From contig NZ_JHZF01000017.1 in NCBI RefSeq assembly GCF_000688295.1, forward strand, positions 62,001 through 126,000: a stretch of 64,000 bases of DNA, in the 5' to 3' direction. A program made the position numbers and the translations under genes. Source of the DNA: Pseudooceanicola nanhaiensis DSM 18065. GTDB lineage: Bacteria; Pseudomonadota; Alphaproteobacteria; Rhodobacterales; Rhodobacteraceae. Positions 34,247-38,696 of the stretch are shown here, one piece after another (the stretch's first letter is position 1; every line of letters starts with the position of its first letter). The notes beneath the pieces are model-generated. The model was not told the origin of the DNA. It made no database searches and saw only the letters and a list, made by a program, of their open reading frames with translations.

Positions 34247-34918
34247 CTAATGCTCGATCCGGACCTCGCCGAGCGTCGGGTCGATCCGGCGGGCCAGGCT
34301 GGTCAGCCGGGTCAGGAAATGCGTCCGCACATAGGTTGCATGGAACGCCGAGGGCGCGGCGAGCACCAGCCGCCCCTGCCCCGCCTCGACCTCGCTCAGC
34401 CCGTGGAACCAGGCGCCATAGGTCACCGGATCCTCCGCATGGAGCCGGGCCTGCGCCGTGGCCCAGACCCCCTCGCCCGCCATCGGCACGGGGCCCCGCA
34501 GCGGCACGACGTTGCTCTCGGGCGCCTCCGGACGCCCGCCGACCCGCTCGACGAAATCCGGCCCGATCAGCGGCCAGGCCGGCCGCGTGTCTTCCATCAT
34601 CCGCTCGAGGTCGAGGCCGTAGACGCTCAGCCGTCCCCGCGCGCCCTTGCGCTTCTGGACCAGCCAGCCGAGGCCCCGCAGCACCGCCATCTCGCGTTTC
34701 ACCGTGCGCTCGTCGACCGACCACATCCGCGCGATCTCGCGCTGGCCGACACACAACTCGTCGCGCTGCCAGTTGTAGCGGGCGGTGATCAACGCCATGA
34801 TCCGCATCACCCGCCGCTGGACGATCTTGTCCTGCGACAGGGCAAAGGCCATCAGCGCCGAAAGAATGTCGTACTTGCGCGCGCCGGCCTGGGGGCCGAC
34901 CGCCTTGGGCTTCTGCAT
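34247..34918 (-). CDS. DnaA-like plasmid replication initiator
   Basis: 223 residues from ATG 34918, with AGGAG 7 nt upstream (frame open to 35014). Residues 15-105 are basic and include a winged-helix region (REIARMWSVDERTVKREMAVLRGLGWLVQ). Residues 151-205 (VWATAQARLHAEDPVTYGAWFHGLSEVE..RLVLAAPSAFHATYVRTHFLTRL) resemble DnaA domain I; the AAA+ ATPase of DnaA is absent. This matches the DnaA-like replicase class of Rhodobacterales plasmids, which is encoded beside parAB. It is divergent from parAB, with candidate origin repeats between. It probably binds those repeats and recruits the replication machinery. Confidence 0.78.
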   Translation of the reverse strand: MQKPKAVGPQAGARKYDILSALMAFALSQDKIVQRRVMRIMALITARYNWQRDELCVGQREIARMWSVDERTVKREMAVLRGLGWLVQKRKGARGRLSVYGLDLERMMEDTRPAWPLIGPDFVERVGGRPEAPESNVVPLRGPVPMAGEGVWATAQARLHAEDPVTYGAWFHGLSEVEAGQGRLVLAAPSAFHATYVRTHFLTRLTSLARRIDPTLGEVRIEH

Positions 34919-35093: not shown

Positions 35094-35385
35094 CCAATAC
35101 CATTTCGAAGAAAAGGGTATCCACTGGTATTGGGGGACATCCAGCCTGTCCCCCAATAGACACGAAACGTCCCCTATTCGAGACGATTTCGCTGCCGTCC
35201 TGTCCCCTATTCGGGGCCCTTGTCCCCGGCGGTCCAGGTACCGCTCGATTCGGGTCCGAGCCCTGACGAGCCTGGGAAAAACCTTCCCTGCGGGGAAGAT
35301 CGCACAGGACGCTGATGCCGGTAAACCTTTGTTTTGCGTTTTTCCGAAATCGGGCGTATTTCAGGAAGCACAAAGAATTAACGTT
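35094..35385. other. Candidate origin of replication with nested inverted repeats, iteron-like repeats and an AT-rich segment
   Basis: The 477-bp gap between the initiator and parA holds CCAATACCA (35094-35102) paired with TGGTATTGG (35125-35133), and TATTGGGGGACA (35128-35139) paired with TGTCCCCCAATA (35147-35158). GTCCCCTATTCG is repeated exactly at 35169-35180 and 35202-35213, with degenerate GTCCCC starts at 35148 and 35222, giving spacings of 21, 33 and 20 bp, near whole helical turns. A parS-like palindrome follows at 35283-35298. The stretch at about 35321-35385 is visibly AT-rich against the GC-rich background and could be the unwinding element or the parA promoter. Confidence 0.65.
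35283..35298. repeat. Candidate parS site 1
   Basis: CTTCCCTGCGGGGAAG, one base off the perfect 16-bp palindrome CTTCCCCGCGGGGAAG. Located between the origin repeats and parA, 98 bp before the parA start. Confidence 0.75.
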
Positions 35386-35395
35386 GAGGCGCAGC

Positions 35396-36691
35396 ATGTA
35401 CGACCATACCGAGCTTGCCCGGCTCCAGGCGCAATCCCTGAAGATGCAGGGCTGGATCCGGCAGCAGACCTTCAGCCCGGAGAACCGCAAGACGCTCCGC
35501 CGCTTCTCCTCCTGGGAGGTGGCCGAGCTGATCTTCCGCATCAACCAGTCCACCTTCCGCGGCCGCCTCGCCGCCGACCCCTCCCTTCCCGGCGGGGAGG
35601 TCGAGGAGGACGGCCGCCAGCGCTGGTATTCGCTCGACGAGATCAACGAGCTCCGCCGCCGGATGAAGATCAACCGCAAGAGCCTGATGCCCCCCCGCCC
35701 CGCCGGCAAGCGCGCCTTCCGGGCCGCGGTCGCCAACTTCAAGGGCGGCGCCGGCAAGTCCACCGTCGCGCTCCACCTGGCCCATGCCGCCGCGCTCGAC
35801 GGCTACCGCGTCCTGCTGGTGGATTTCGACCCGCAGGCGACGCTGTCGCACTCGATGGGGCTCACCGACGTGGCCGAGGATTACACCGTCTGGGGCATCA
35901 TGGCGCGCGACCTCATCAAGGAGACCGACCGGATGAACGCCGCCGCCACCGGCGCGGCCTCCGGGACCGCCCTGCCCCAGCGAAAGCTGCCCGCCTCGAT
36001 CCGCGACATGGGCCTCGACGAGCTGCGCCACGGCGACTTCATCAAGACCACCGCCTGGTCCACGATCGACATCATCCCCTCCTGCGCCAATGCCGCCTTC
36101 GTGGAGTTCGCCTCCGCCCAGTACCGGCACCTGAACCCCGAATGGACCTTCTTCGCCGCCGTCTCGCGCTACCTCGACGGGCTGGGCGACGACGATTACG
36201 ACCTGATCCTCTTCGACTGCCCGCCCGCGATCGGCTACCAGTCGATGAACGCGGTCTTCGCGGCCGACATGCTCTATATCCCCTCCGGCCCCGGCTACTG
36301 GGAATACGACAGCACCACCTCCTTCATCGGCCAGCTCTCCGAGGCGCTCGAGGATCTGAGCCACGGCTTCGGCGAAAGCTTCCCCGCGGGGAAGGTCGCG
36401 CTGCCGAAAAGCTTCGCCGACATCCGCTTCCTGATGACCCGCTACGAGCCCGGCAACGACCTGCACCGCGCGATGCTTGAAGCCTTCCGCAAGGTTTTTG
36501 GCGATCATGTGACGGAGCATCCGATCGAGATGACCCGCGCCGTGGAGCAATCCGGGCGGTTCCTCTCCTCGGTCTACGAGATCGACTACCGCTCGATGAC
36601 GCGGGAGACCTGGCGCCGGGCGCGCGCCTCCTTCGACCGCGCCTACGAGGAGTTCAAGGGCAACGTCATCGCCGCATGGGACAAGGTGTGA
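35396..36691 (+). CDS. parA: ParA-family partition ATPase
   Basis: 431 residues from ATG 35396, with GAGG 7 nt upstream. N-terminal DNA-binding region (about 35-95; SSWEVAELIFRINQSTFRGRL, then RWYSLDEINELRRRM) as in type Ia plasmid ParA/RepA proteins, followed by the deviant Walker motif KGGAGKST at 116-123 and VDFDPQ at 142-147; LILFDCPPAIGYQSMNA is the Walker B/switch region. It segregates the replicon together with ParB and is likely autoregulated. The coding sequence contains a perfect parS palindrome at 36379-36394, read as FPAGK (329-333). ParB follows after 10 bp. Confidence 0.93.
   Translation: MYDHTELARLQAQSLKMQGWIRQQTFSPENRKTLRRFSSWEVAELIFRINQSTFRGRLAADPSLPGGEVEEDGRQRWYSLDEINELRRRMKINRKSLMPPRPAGKRAFRAAVANFKGGAGKSTVALHLAHAAALDGYRVLLVDFDPQATLSHSMGLTDVAEDYTVWGIMARDLIKETDRMNAAATGAASGTALPQRKLPASIRDMGLDELRHGDFIKTTAWSTIDIIPSCANAAFVEFASAQYRHLNPEWTFFAAVSRYLDGLGDDDYDLILFDCPPAIGYQSMNAVFAADMLYIPSGPGYWEYDSTTSFIGQLSEALEDLSHGFGESFPAGKVALPKSFADIRFLMTRYEPGNDLHRAMLEAFRKVFGDHVTEHPIEMTRAVEQSGRFLSSVYEIDYRSMTRETWRRARASFDRAYEEFKGNVIAAWDKV
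36379..36394. repeat. Candidate parS site 2 (inside parA)
   Basis: Perfect palindrome CTTCCCCGCGGGGAAG within the parA coding sequence, encoding part of S-FPAGK. Confidence 0.75.
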
Positions 36692-36701
36692 GGGCCGGAT
36701 C

Positions 36702-37808
36702 ATGGTGAAGAAGAGACGCATGTTCGACATCGAGATGCCGGAGGAGGGGCCGCCCGAAACCTTCCCCGCGGGGAAGGTCGAAGCCCCCTCGGCCGAGCCG
36801 CGCCGCCGCGGGCCGATGGCGACCGCCATCGGCGAGACGGCCGAGAGCAGCCGCGAGCGCGCCGAGGTCGAGGCGCAAATCCGGGCCGAGAACGACGCGC
36901 TGGCGCATGAGCACGTGAAGCTGAAGCGCCTCGGGCTGGTGCTGGAGCTGGTGCCGCTGGAGGCTGTCGAGACCTCCAAGCTGATCCGCGACCGCGCCGC
37001 CGGGCCGGACATGGAGCTTGCCGGGCTCAAGGCCTCGATCACGGAGCTGGGGCTCTCGAACCCGATCCGGCTGGAGGCGCGGCCCGACGGCCGGTTCGAG
37101 CTGATCCAGGGCTTCCGCCGTCTGGCGGCCTACCGCGCCTTGCTGGAAGAGACCGGCGATGCCGAGGCCTGGGGCCGCATCCCGGCCGCCGTCAGCCAGC
37201 CGGGCGACGACCTCGACGTGCTCTACCGCCGGATGGTGGACGAGAACCTCGTGCGCAAGGACATCTCCTTCGCCGAGATGGCGCAGCTGGCGCTGGACTA
37301 CGCGGCCGATCCCGGCACGGCGATCGAGGATCCGGACAAGGCGGTGGCGGAGCTCTTCAAGTCCGCGGGCTACCAGAAGCGCAGCTATGTCCGGAGCTTC
37401 ATCAAGCTGATGGAGCGGATCGGCCCGGCGCTGCAATTCGCGCCGGACGTGCCGCGCGCGCTCGGCCTCGCCCTGGCGCAGCGGCTGGAGGAGGTCGACG
37501 GGCTCTCGGGCGTGATCCGGCGCGAGCTGGCGGAGCTCGACAACCGTTCGGTGGTGGACGAGCTCGAGGTGCTGCGGCGCCATGCCGGGATGTCGGAAGG
37601 GGCACCGGCCCCCCGGGCGCCGGCGGTGAAACCGGCGGGGGCAGGCGGCAAGGCCAAGACCTCGTTCCAGTTCGACCGGGCCGAGGGGCGCGCGAAATGC
37701 ACCGCGGCCAACGGACGGCTGGAGGTGCGGCTGGACCGGGATTTCTCGACCATCGACCGGCGGCGTCTGGAAGAGGCGGTGCGCCGGATGCTTGACCAGC
37801 TGGAGTGA
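36702..37808 (+). CDS. parB: ParB-family centromere-binding partition protein
   Basis: 368 residues. Basic N-terminus (MVKKRRMF) followed by the CTPase/ParB-N domain: LIQGFRRLAAYRAL (GFRR 137-140, equivalent to GERRxRA) and ENLVRKDISFAEMAQ (181-195, equivalent to NxxREDL). A helix-turn-helix region follows (about 215-260, KSAGYQKRSYVRSFIKLMERI), and a C-terminal dimerisation part ends RRLEEAVRRMLDQLE. It should bind the palindromes of this locus and spread or clamp on DNA. A perfect palindrome (36761-36776) lies in the coding sequence, read as FPAGK at residues 21-25, before the conserved domain. Confidence 0.92.
   Translation: MVKKRRMFDIEMPEEGPPETFPAGKVEAPSAEPRRRGPMATAIGETAESSRERAEVEAQIRAENDALAHEHVKLKRLGLVLELVPLEAVETSKLIRDRAAGPDMELAGLKASITELGLSNPIRLEARPDGRFELIQGFRRLAAYRALLEETGDAEAWGRIPAAVSQPGDDLDVLYRRMVDENLVRKDISFAEMAQLALDYAADPGTAIEDPDKAVAELFKSAGYQKRSYVRSFIKLMERIGPALQFAPDVPRALGLALAQRLEEVDGLSGVIRRELAELDNRSVVDELEVLRRHAGMSEGAPAPRAPAVKPAGAGGKAKTSFQFDRAEGRAKCTAANGRLEVRLDRDFSTIDRRRLEEAVRRMLDQLE
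36761..36776. repeat. Candidate parS site 3 (inside parB)
   Basis: Perfect palindrome CTTCCCCGCGGGGAAG in codons 20-25 of parB, encoding the same FPAGK as the copy in parA. Confidence 0.75.
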
Positions 37809-37813
37809 GCGAT

Positions 37814-37829
37814 CTTCCCCGCGGGGAAG
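37814..37829. repeat. Candidate parS site 4
   Basis: Perfect palindrome CTTCCCCGCGGGGAAG starting 6 bp after the parB stop codon. Confidence 0.8.
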
Positions 37830-37908
37830 GTTTCGGGGCCGGGGGCAGGGATGCCGCCGGCCCTTTTCCTTTGCGTCGCGGTGCGTGGGGGGGCATGGCG
37901 CGCAGGAC

Positions 37909-37924
37909 CTTCCCTGCGGGGAAG
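37909..37924. repeat. Candidate parS site 5
   Basis: CTTCCCTGCGGGGAAG, the same single-base variant as site 1, in the non-coding 188 bp between parB and parE. Confidence 0.75.
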
Positions 37925-37971
37925 GTGGACGCGGCGCCGCGGCGGCGTTGCGAGGGTGCCGTCACCGGAGC

Positions 37972-37987
37972 CTTCCCCGCGGGGAAG
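37972..37987. repeat. Candidate parS site 6
   Basis: Perfect palindrome CTTCCCCGCGGGGAAG, ending 10 bp before the parE stop codon (minus-strand gene). Sites 4, 5 and 6 are spaced 95 and 63 bp apart. Confidence 0.78.
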
Positions 37988-37996
37988 GCTCCGGCC

Positions 37997-38326
37997 TCAG
38001 CCCCGCAGTGCGCGGAGCGCGGCGATCCGGGCCGGCAGGTCGGTGCGAGCGTGCAGGAAGTCGACGAAGATCACCTCTGCCTCGGTCTCCAGGAAGACGG
38101 CGAAGTGCTCTCCGGCGCGGGTGAAGCGCAGGCCGGTGGCGGCGCCGTCGTCCAGCAGCAGGGCGCAATCCTGCGTGCTGGCGCGGCCCTCGGCGGCGGC
38201 GGTGCAGCGGGCGACAAGCTCTTCCTCGTAGAGCTCCGCCTGGACGGGGCCGAAGGTGTCGAGGGTCCAGAGCGCGATGTCGATCAGGCTGTCCTGGGCG
38301 CGGGGCGTCAGGCGCCAGGGCTTCAC
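37997..38326 (-). CDS. parE: Type II toxin, ParE/RelE superfamily
   Basis: 109 residues, typical for the family. LTPRAQDSLIDIALWTLDTFG is the N-terminal helical hairpin, GLRFTRAGEHFAVFLETEAEVIFVDFLHARTDLPARI the C-terminal beta-sheet and final helix of ParE. ParE toxins inhibit gyrase; RelE relatives cut mRNA, and the sequence fits ParE better. Overlaps the antitoxin gene stop by 4 bp, the usual antitoxin-first operon. It would kill plasmid-free cells and so stabilise the replicon. Confidence 0.85.
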   Translation of the reverse strand: MKPWRLTPRAQDSLIDIALWTLDTFGPVQAELYEEELVARCTAAAEGRASTQDCALLLDDGAATGLRFTRAGEHFAVFLETEAEVIFVDFLHARTDLPARIAALRALRG

Positions 38327-38589
38327 GGGGCGGACCGGCGGCGTCGGGCTTCGGTAAAGGCGGTGCGGATGGCCTCGGCCCCGGTGCCCTCGGCCCGTGC
38401 GCCCGAGAGCGCCTCGTCGAGGCCCGCCCGCAGGCGTTCGCGGAGGGCGAGGGTCTGGCTCTCCTCCAGCTCCAGCAGGCGCAGCCCGGCGCGGAGCGCT
38501 TCGGAGGCGTTCTGGTAGCGGCCGGTGGCCACGAGCGATTGCACCAGCGCTTCCTGTTCCGCGGTGAGGACGACGTTGCGGGTGGTCAT
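38323..38589 (-). CDS. parD: Type II antitoxin, ParD family
   Basis: 88 residues. N-terminal ribbon-helix-helix (TRNVVLTAEQEALVQSLVATGRYQNASEALRAGLRLLE) binds DNA as a dimer; the C-terminal tail (ALSGARAEGTGAEAIRTAFTEARRRR) would wrap the toxin. GGAG lies upstream of ATG 38589. A palindrome 19 bp upstream (38608-38626) is the expected autoregulatory operator. Forms a two-gene operon with parE inside the partition region. Confidence 0.87.
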   Translation of the reverse strand: MTTRNVVLTAEQEALVQSLVATGRYQNASEALRAGLRLLELEESQTLALRERLRAGLDEALSGARAEGTGAEAIRTAFTEARRRRSAP

Positions 38590-38607
38590 GGCGCGACTCC
38601 TTCGGCT

Positions 38608-38626
38608 ATTGGCAATATATGCCAAT
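38608..38626. promoter_or_regulatory. parDE operator/promoter palindrome
   Basis: ATTGGCA-atata-TGCCAAT: perfect 7-bp arms with an AT core, starting 19 bp upstream of parD. Such sites are the standard binding target of ParD ribbon-helix-helix dimers. Confidence 0.65.
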
Positions 38627-38680
38627 GACGCCGCGTGGACAAGGCCGGGCAGGGCAGGGGGCGCGCCGGGGCGGGCGGAC

Positions 38681-38696
38681 CTTCCCCGCGGGGAAG
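38681..38696. repeat. Candidate parS site 7
   Basis: Perfect palindrome CTTCCCCGCGGGGAAG, 10 bp beyond the fcs stop codon and upstream of parDE. With site 6 it brackets the toxin-antitoxin module. Confidence 0.78.

Follow-up and report, generated by a model that had tools for sequence, protein, structure and literature searches.

A palindrome array at a parAB locus

A 64,000-nucleotide stretch of the Pseudooceanicola nanhaiensis DSM 18065 assembly (contig NZ_JHZF01000017.1, positions 62,001 to 126,000; hereafter, the window) carries a parAB locus in and around which a 16-bp palindrome recurs, and these palindromes are analysed here as a candidate parS array, the centromere of a partitioning system. 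A small gene for a DnaA-like replicase (34247..34918, minus strand; Pfam DnaA_N, expectation value (E) 7.9e-06, with the domain at the C-terminal side) lies upstream of, and divergent from, parA (35396..36691, plus strand; 431 aa), which is directly followed by parB (36702..37808, plus strand; 368 aa) and then by a ParE-type toxin gene (37997..38326, minus strand; Pfam ParE_toxin, E 2.2e-08) and a ParD-like antitoxin gene (38323..38589, minus strand; named by eye from its reading frame). At 143,479 bp, the contig carrying the locus is of a size that fits a plasmid, and the replicon is putatively extrachromosomal.

The two partition proteins resemble those of type I (Ia-like) ParABS systems. 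ParA has the deviant Walker A motif (KGGAGKS, at about residues 116–122) and the extra N-terminal part of that type; it scores above the cut-off for Pfam AAA_31, its best NCBIfam match, the RepA-type ParA TIGR03453 (E 1.2e-61), is below cut-off, and its relatives among solved structures include 7npd and 3ez9. ParB is below the cut-off for Pfam ParB_N and was recognized by a Foldseek search with its AlphaFold2 model (mean predicted local distance difference test score (pLDDT) 73), which retrieved Noc, KorB and ParB (26 chains at E ≤ 0.001, best 4.7e-07, with TM-scores on the query of 0.20–0.38). The model suggests the ParB fold with a helix-turn-helix that is expected of a type I (Ia-like) ParB encoded directly after parA, with a predicted recognition helix at residues 224–243. 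The corresponding ParA model is poor (mean pLDDT 62, and <50 in the loop that holds the palindrome-encoded residues).

The palindrome CTTCCCCGCGGGGAAG occurs exactly five times (all sites are given without strand): within parA (36379..36394, encoding FPAGK, ParA residues 329–333), within parB (36761..36776, again encoding FPAGK, ParB residues 21–25), 5 bp past the parB stop codon (37814..37829), at the centre of a perfect 30-bp palindrome (37972..37987) and past the toxin–antitoxin pair (38681..38696). A variant with one mismatch, CTTCCCTGCGGGGAAG, lies 97 bp 5' of parA (35283..35298; many relatives have a copy near position −1410 relative to the start of parB) and between parB and the toxin–antitoxin pair (37909..37924), such that the array spans the toxin–antitoxin pair as well as parA and parB. 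The window scan thereby bore out the five exact positions and two C-to-T variants listed in an earlier reading of the letters alone (the sequence-only reading), and also its remark that no other copies were noticed in the 64 kb, which stands at zero or one mismatch; a degenerate copy with two mismatches lies at 35585..35600, within parA (codons 64–68), where many relatives have a better copy. With up to three mismatches allowed, the window holds 10 matches (100 shuffles: mean 1.17, maximum 5). The 30-bp palindrome, at 37965–37994, is located at the 3' end of parE and may double as a terminator.

The clustering extends to the whole assembly (20 contigs, 4,659,730 bases), for which the sequence-only reading had proposed a count of exact and one-mismatch copies: all five exact copies fall in the 3.4 kb of the array (about 0.008 would be expected in the assembly from base composition), as do two of the three one-mismatch copies, the third being at C13:574603.

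Conservation and genome-wide association

Relatives were compared by a protein search, from which the best 80 of 291 loci were kept (ParB 60–74% identical), and in a further 100 loci, mostly with more distant ParBs, which are part of the ParB matches listed. In this comparison of related plasmids, a check that the sequence-only reading had proposed, 79 of the 80 loci carry the motif at two or fewer mismatches, mostly at the same four or five places relative to parB (5' of parA, two in parA, near the parB start and just past parB); the exception, L119, carries CTTTTCCGCGGAAAAG three times. A replicase relative was detected in 165 of 214 loci; in the 107 loci used below for tree comparison, it lies upstream of parA in divergent orientation. 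De novo searches for repeated palindromes in the relatives recovered chiefly TTCCCCGCGGGGAA, GTCCCCGCGGGGAC, TTACCC(GC/AT)GGGTAA, TTATCCGCGGATAA and TTTTCCGCGGAAAA, with TAACCC(GC/AT)GGGTTA in a distant clade of 17 loci, of which 14 list copies, all past parB; some loci yielded no motif in this search because their copies are imperfect. Three loci (L146, L151 and L173) have arrays of 12–14 GTCC copies (at one or fewer mismatches), many about 70–100 bp apart, that reach past parB.

Across 390 genomes of the order (ParB cut-off E ≤ 1e-20; tallied by reading two tables), a ParB relative was present in 213, the exact 16-mer in 39, the GTCC 14-mer in 49 and the TTAT 14-mer in 7. Nearly all genomes with the exact 16-mer have a ParB relative (37 of 39), and the association sharpens with ParB similarity: 32 of the 33 genomes with a best ParB match at E ≤ 4e-117 carry the exact 16-mer (all except G287), compared with 7 of the remaining 357.

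The window's own assembly also served as a same-cell control, as it holds three weaker ParB matches besides the window ParB. Near one of them, on C19 (L363, 3362 and 3408), CTTAACAGCTGTTAAG occurs twice; this is the RepABC-1 palindrome (TTAACAG/CTGTTAA) printed in an available part of PMC5613091, so the approach finds a published centromere motif. Near another, on C3 (L362, 5672), GTTTCGCGCGCGAAAC occurs once and is a candidate site.

Co-variation of the motif with the partition genes

The type of the parA-internal copy could be scored against that of the other sites of the same locus in 145 of 194 non-redundant loci, and the two agreed in 141 (92 TTCC, 36 GTCC, 9 TTAC, 3 TTAT and 1 TTTT). The agreeing loci are not independent, as only about 12 changes of type have occurred: on a ParB tree with 131 rows, which samples a third of the close ParBs and most of the others, 12 changes over all motif types are required. 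The tree is a quick one with several weak branches; rooted with the distant clade outside, it reads as GTCC having arisen within TTCC and then reverted twice. In one of the putatively reverted clades (with L220 and L221), the parA copy stayed GTCC; the other clade has a parA copy that is eroded (L211 and L214) or not aligned (L217 and L219).

Motif type also tracks ParB residue 224, which begins the predicted recognition helix and was picked as the best-separating of all alignment columns: all 40 GTCC-type ParBs carry Arg there and none of the 50 TTCC-type ParBs from three groups does, and the reverted clade of L211 has Lys (4 of 4).

Constraint on DNA within parA and parB

Three of the sites are intragenic (36379 and 35585 in parA, and 36761 in parB), a point absent from the sequence-only reading. 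We scored 14 bases in 182 loci whose ParA residues align with the FPAGK of the window; 159 of them have zero or one of seven possible palindrome mismatches, a quality reached by 0.34% of all codon-phase windows in the same genes (the site itself included). Codon choice at this parA place departs from the usage of the gene, with Gly as GGG in 144 of 156 (21.5% over ParA), Pro as CCC in 147 of 156 (49.5%) and Thr, in loci of the GTCC type, as ACA in 33 of 40 (13.9%), whereas Phe as TTC (103 of 104; 78.7% over ParA) and Lys as AAG (107 of 115; 87.4%) are close to gene usage and add little weight. All 94 loci scored at the parB place (redundant ones included) use GGG for Gly there, and 88 of the 94 use CCC for Pro, against 34% each over ParB. 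The peptides found at the parA place (FPAGK/FPTGK, VPAGT, LPTGK, LSADK and FSAEK) are each the translation of their motif. As judged from these codons, which follow the motif and not gene usage, the intragenic copies are evidently kept at the DNA level. The motif copies lie within coding parts of parA and parB, and the putative centromere sequence would therefore dictate a few amino acids of both proteins; in ParB, residues 21–25 lie in a region of very low model confidence that is presumably disordered.

A putative parS array and its alternatives

Together, these results suggest that the seven palindromes very probably constitute a parS array through which a type I ParABS system partitions a DnaA-like Rhodobacterales replicon. 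The sequence-only reading had described the array as the centromere of a Rhodobacterales DnaA-like plasmid family, and this description gains support from the clustering in the assembly, the fixed places in relatives, the association with ParB and the apparent clade-wise change of type along with ParB. By analogy with the respective families, ParB dimers would bind each CTTCCCCGCGGGGAAG via their helix-turn-helix and, once loaded, spread along the DNA from site to site, and the ParA ATPase would move the ParB–DNA complex. The array that would be bound covers about 3.4 kb, with copies 5' of parA, in parA, in parB, just past parB and around the toxin–antitoxin pair, and the copy 5' of parA may also serve autoregulation. 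When ParB specificity changes, the sites would change with it and, through them, the parA-encoded peptide (FPAGK, VPAGT, LSADK or FSAEK). The relatives may thus hold a natural record of a protein–DNA specificity switch, in which the parA site must alter its own peptide as ParB specificity shifts; in two clades, the parA site seems to have lagged or decayed after the switch.

Several observations weigh against this interpretation. Four of the 145 scorable loci disagree in type between the parA copy and the other sites (L220, L221, L134 and, with an eroded copy, L211), and 49 of 194 were unscorable: 13 lacked a clean copy at the other places, in 12 the ParA site did not align, 17 had no palindrome there (15 of these belonging to the distant clade) and in 7 the two halves differed. 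Residue 224 is still Arg in the reverted clade of L220 and L221 (2 of 2), which argues against a one-residue rule. Two genomes, G286 and G374, have the 16-mer without a ParB relative at the cut-off, and in some relatives the motif also occurs far from the par locus. Finally, trees of the same 107 loci require 12 changes of type for ParA, 12 for ParB and 13 for the DnaA-like replicase, so phylogeny alone cannot decide between ParB and the replicase as the protein that recognizes the sites. As a separate observation, the exact 16-mers of G286 (five) and G374 (four) are single and far apart (L254, L255, L258, L259, L262, L263, L266 and L267).

The palindromes could accordingly be read as binding sites of the DnaA-like replicase, that is, as an origin or copy-control array, an explanation favoured by the adjoining replicase gene and by a replicase tree that fits the motif types nearly as well as that of ParB. 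We consider it quite unlikely, as the sites lie in and past parAB with none in the replicase gene; as an orphan ParB (L184), beside which neither parA nor a replicase was found in a 10-kb locus, still has adjacent sites; and as pDSHI02 of Dinoroseobacter shibae (L291), which has no parA annotated beside parB and only a 285-bp DnaA_N gene, keeps its sites at parB. Motif type furthermore tracks the residue at the start of the predicted ParB recognition helix, and palindromes of the same layout are, according to portions of PMC5613091 and PMC9040568, the targets of RepB in RepABC plasmids. Chance clustering of transcription terminators or of dispersed hairpins resembling repetitive extragenic palindromic elements has still less to recommend it: the copy at 37972 does sit in a 30-bp palindrome at the parE 3' end and, in one relative with 58 copies (G237), a flanking repeat accompanies the palindrome in 6 of 15 loci, yet copies occupy fixed codons inside open reading frames, the own assembly has no exact copy outside the array, and the motif at the parA place follows the type of its locus rather than any pairing sequence (141 of 145), leaving this account barely credible. 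Conservation of the protein alone, in which ParA and ParB would require FPAGK and the palindrome in the DNA would be a by-product, could draw on the invariance of F, P, G and K in the peptide across 28 close aligned ParA and ParB sequences, and is nonetheless highly improbable given Gly and Pro codons far from the usage of each gene, a peptide that shifts to VPAGT, LSADK or FSAEK along with the DNA motif, and the presence of the same motif outside genes.

Copies scattered over the genomes of relatives

A centromere would not be expected to have copies spread evenly over the genome, and in this respect the sequence-only reading holds for the window's own genome, whereas a few relatives carry many copies off the par locus. 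The 16-mer occurs 58 times genome-wide in G237, and the GTCC 14-mer 102 times in G259, 89 in G174, 78 in G333, 76 in G354, 28 in G181, 24 in G345 and 23 in G285. Exact copies at the par locus number 7 in G259, 7 in G333, 6 in G354, 4 in G345, 2 in G174 and 2 in G237; in G181 and G285, they number 10 and 12. All 64 of the listed G259 copies lie along one 2.5-Mb contig. In a search for a Noc-like gap around the presumed replication terminus of this genome, GC skew in 20 sampled 20-kb stretches suggests a turn near 0.6 Mb, where sites are not depleted; sites are sparser at 1.9–2.5 Mb.

Flanks were checked in G237, G259 and G174, at 15 loci per genome. The notion that all scattered copies have unique flanks was dropped, because six of the G237 loci (L222, L223, L227, L228, L233 and L235) have a flanking repeat in common, so a dispersed element may have spread part of the copies in that genome; G259 and G174 have no common flank, and their few short shared words were taken as near chance.

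In G259, G174, G333, G354, G237 and G345, the copies are of the motif type of the genome's own plasmid-type ParB. Within one genus (g81), copies number 102, 78, 76, 24 and 3 in the five genomes that carry a close ParB and zero in the three that lack one (among them G335, with a distant ParB). The scattered copies appear to be better kept than their surroundings: of 15 G259 copies tested against the sister species G333, 12 were alignable, of which 9 are letter-perfect over 14 bases in flanks 74–85% identical (the flank range is also given as 74–91%; two of the nine are 24 bases apart) and 3 are altered, compared with about 1 perfect copy in 12 expected from the flank identities by our own arithmetic; against G354, 4 of 8 alignable copies are perfect.

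In G174, the orphan ParB (L184, 4289–5434, minus strand) lies beside bchO-like and bchD-like genes (named by eye). Of 214 loci, 20 (L184 among them) contain a relative of this BchO-like protein, which fits an account, in PMC6052148, of DnaA-like I modules inside the photosynthesis gene cluster. These observations raise the possibility, which we put forward only tentatively, that in some relatives the chromosome has co-opted a plasmid ParB, which would now bind chromosomal DNA in a Noc-like or regulatory role, and the conserved scattered copies make this question directly testable.

Relation to known systems

In Bacillus subtilis, the first parS is located within parB. The Streptomyces plasmid SCP2 has parS inside a ParB-like gene, parT, as shown by chromatin immunoprecipitation sequencing and binding (PMC12260392, in part), although there it is one 18-bp repeat in one gene. 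The Noc protein of Bacillus and its binding sites (excerpts of PMC7383237 and PMC4331003) offer a parallel for what may hold in some of the relatives, namely a relative of ParB with sites scattered over the chromosome; in contrast, the window's genome is without scattered sites, and the ParB described here is not known to act in division.

A close likeness is with RepABC plasmids, in which such palindromes are known to occur. According to the available parts of PMC5613091 and PMC9040568, these have type-specific palindromes of 14–16 bp with a GC centre, near parAB-type genes, that co-evolve with RepB; in the Rhodobacteraceae, 14-bp palindromes with the consensus GTTNNNNGCNNNNAAC define compatibility (PMC5613091), and selection for parS within coding sequence has been proposed, with sites at the repB 5' end (PMC9040568). 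The 16-mer of the window has the layout of GTTNNNNGCNNNNAAC with C for G at the ends. The locus nevertheless departs from RepABC: the site ends C...G and not G...C, and ParA is under the RepA cut-off (repC was not searched for by profile). As far as these sources describe them, RepABC plasmids have another replicase and few sites, whereas the window has a GC-rich motif, seven or more sites and fixed codons of both parA and parB.

With a DnaA_N-bearing replicase beside parA and parB, the locus resembles the DnaA-like I plasmids named in sections of PMC4148982 and PMC9025767. The window ParB is 49% identical to that of pPGA1_262 and 45% to that of pDSM14862_b, both DnaA-like I, and 34% to that of pDSM14862_d, DnaA-like II, and is by this measure apparently nearer to type I than to type II. 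The two DnaA-like I references differ in motif: pPGA1_262 has GTCC sites, of the type GTCCCCGCGGGGAC, inside parA (at the same intragenic place), inside parB and past parB, and pDSM14862_b has TTCC sites 5' of parA and inside parB. Several motif types thus occur inside what is called DnaA-like I. Plasmid pDSM14862_d (typed from a portion of PMC9025767) has the same gene order, with TAACCCATGGGTTA once, 9 bp past parB, and none in parA.

The accessible parts of PMC3910554, PMC3910702, PMC3832669, PMC4572655, PMC6052148, PMC9044938, PMC9025767, PMC5613091 and PMC4148982 give no parS motif for plasmids of the DnaA-like type, although Petersen 2011, which established the type, may print one; the 14- and 16-letter motif strings had no occurrence among the literature matches listed, and our literature search returned nothing joining parS sites with DnaA-like plasmids of the Rhodobacteraceae. 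As far as the literature searched shows, this consensus for DnaA-like plasmids is new, and so is the presence, in parA as well as parB, of copies that are conserved and co-vary. The predicted set of centromere motifs for Rhodobacterales DnaA-like plasmids could allow compatibility to be predicted from sequence. On pDSHI02, a second replication gene lies near the parB locus.

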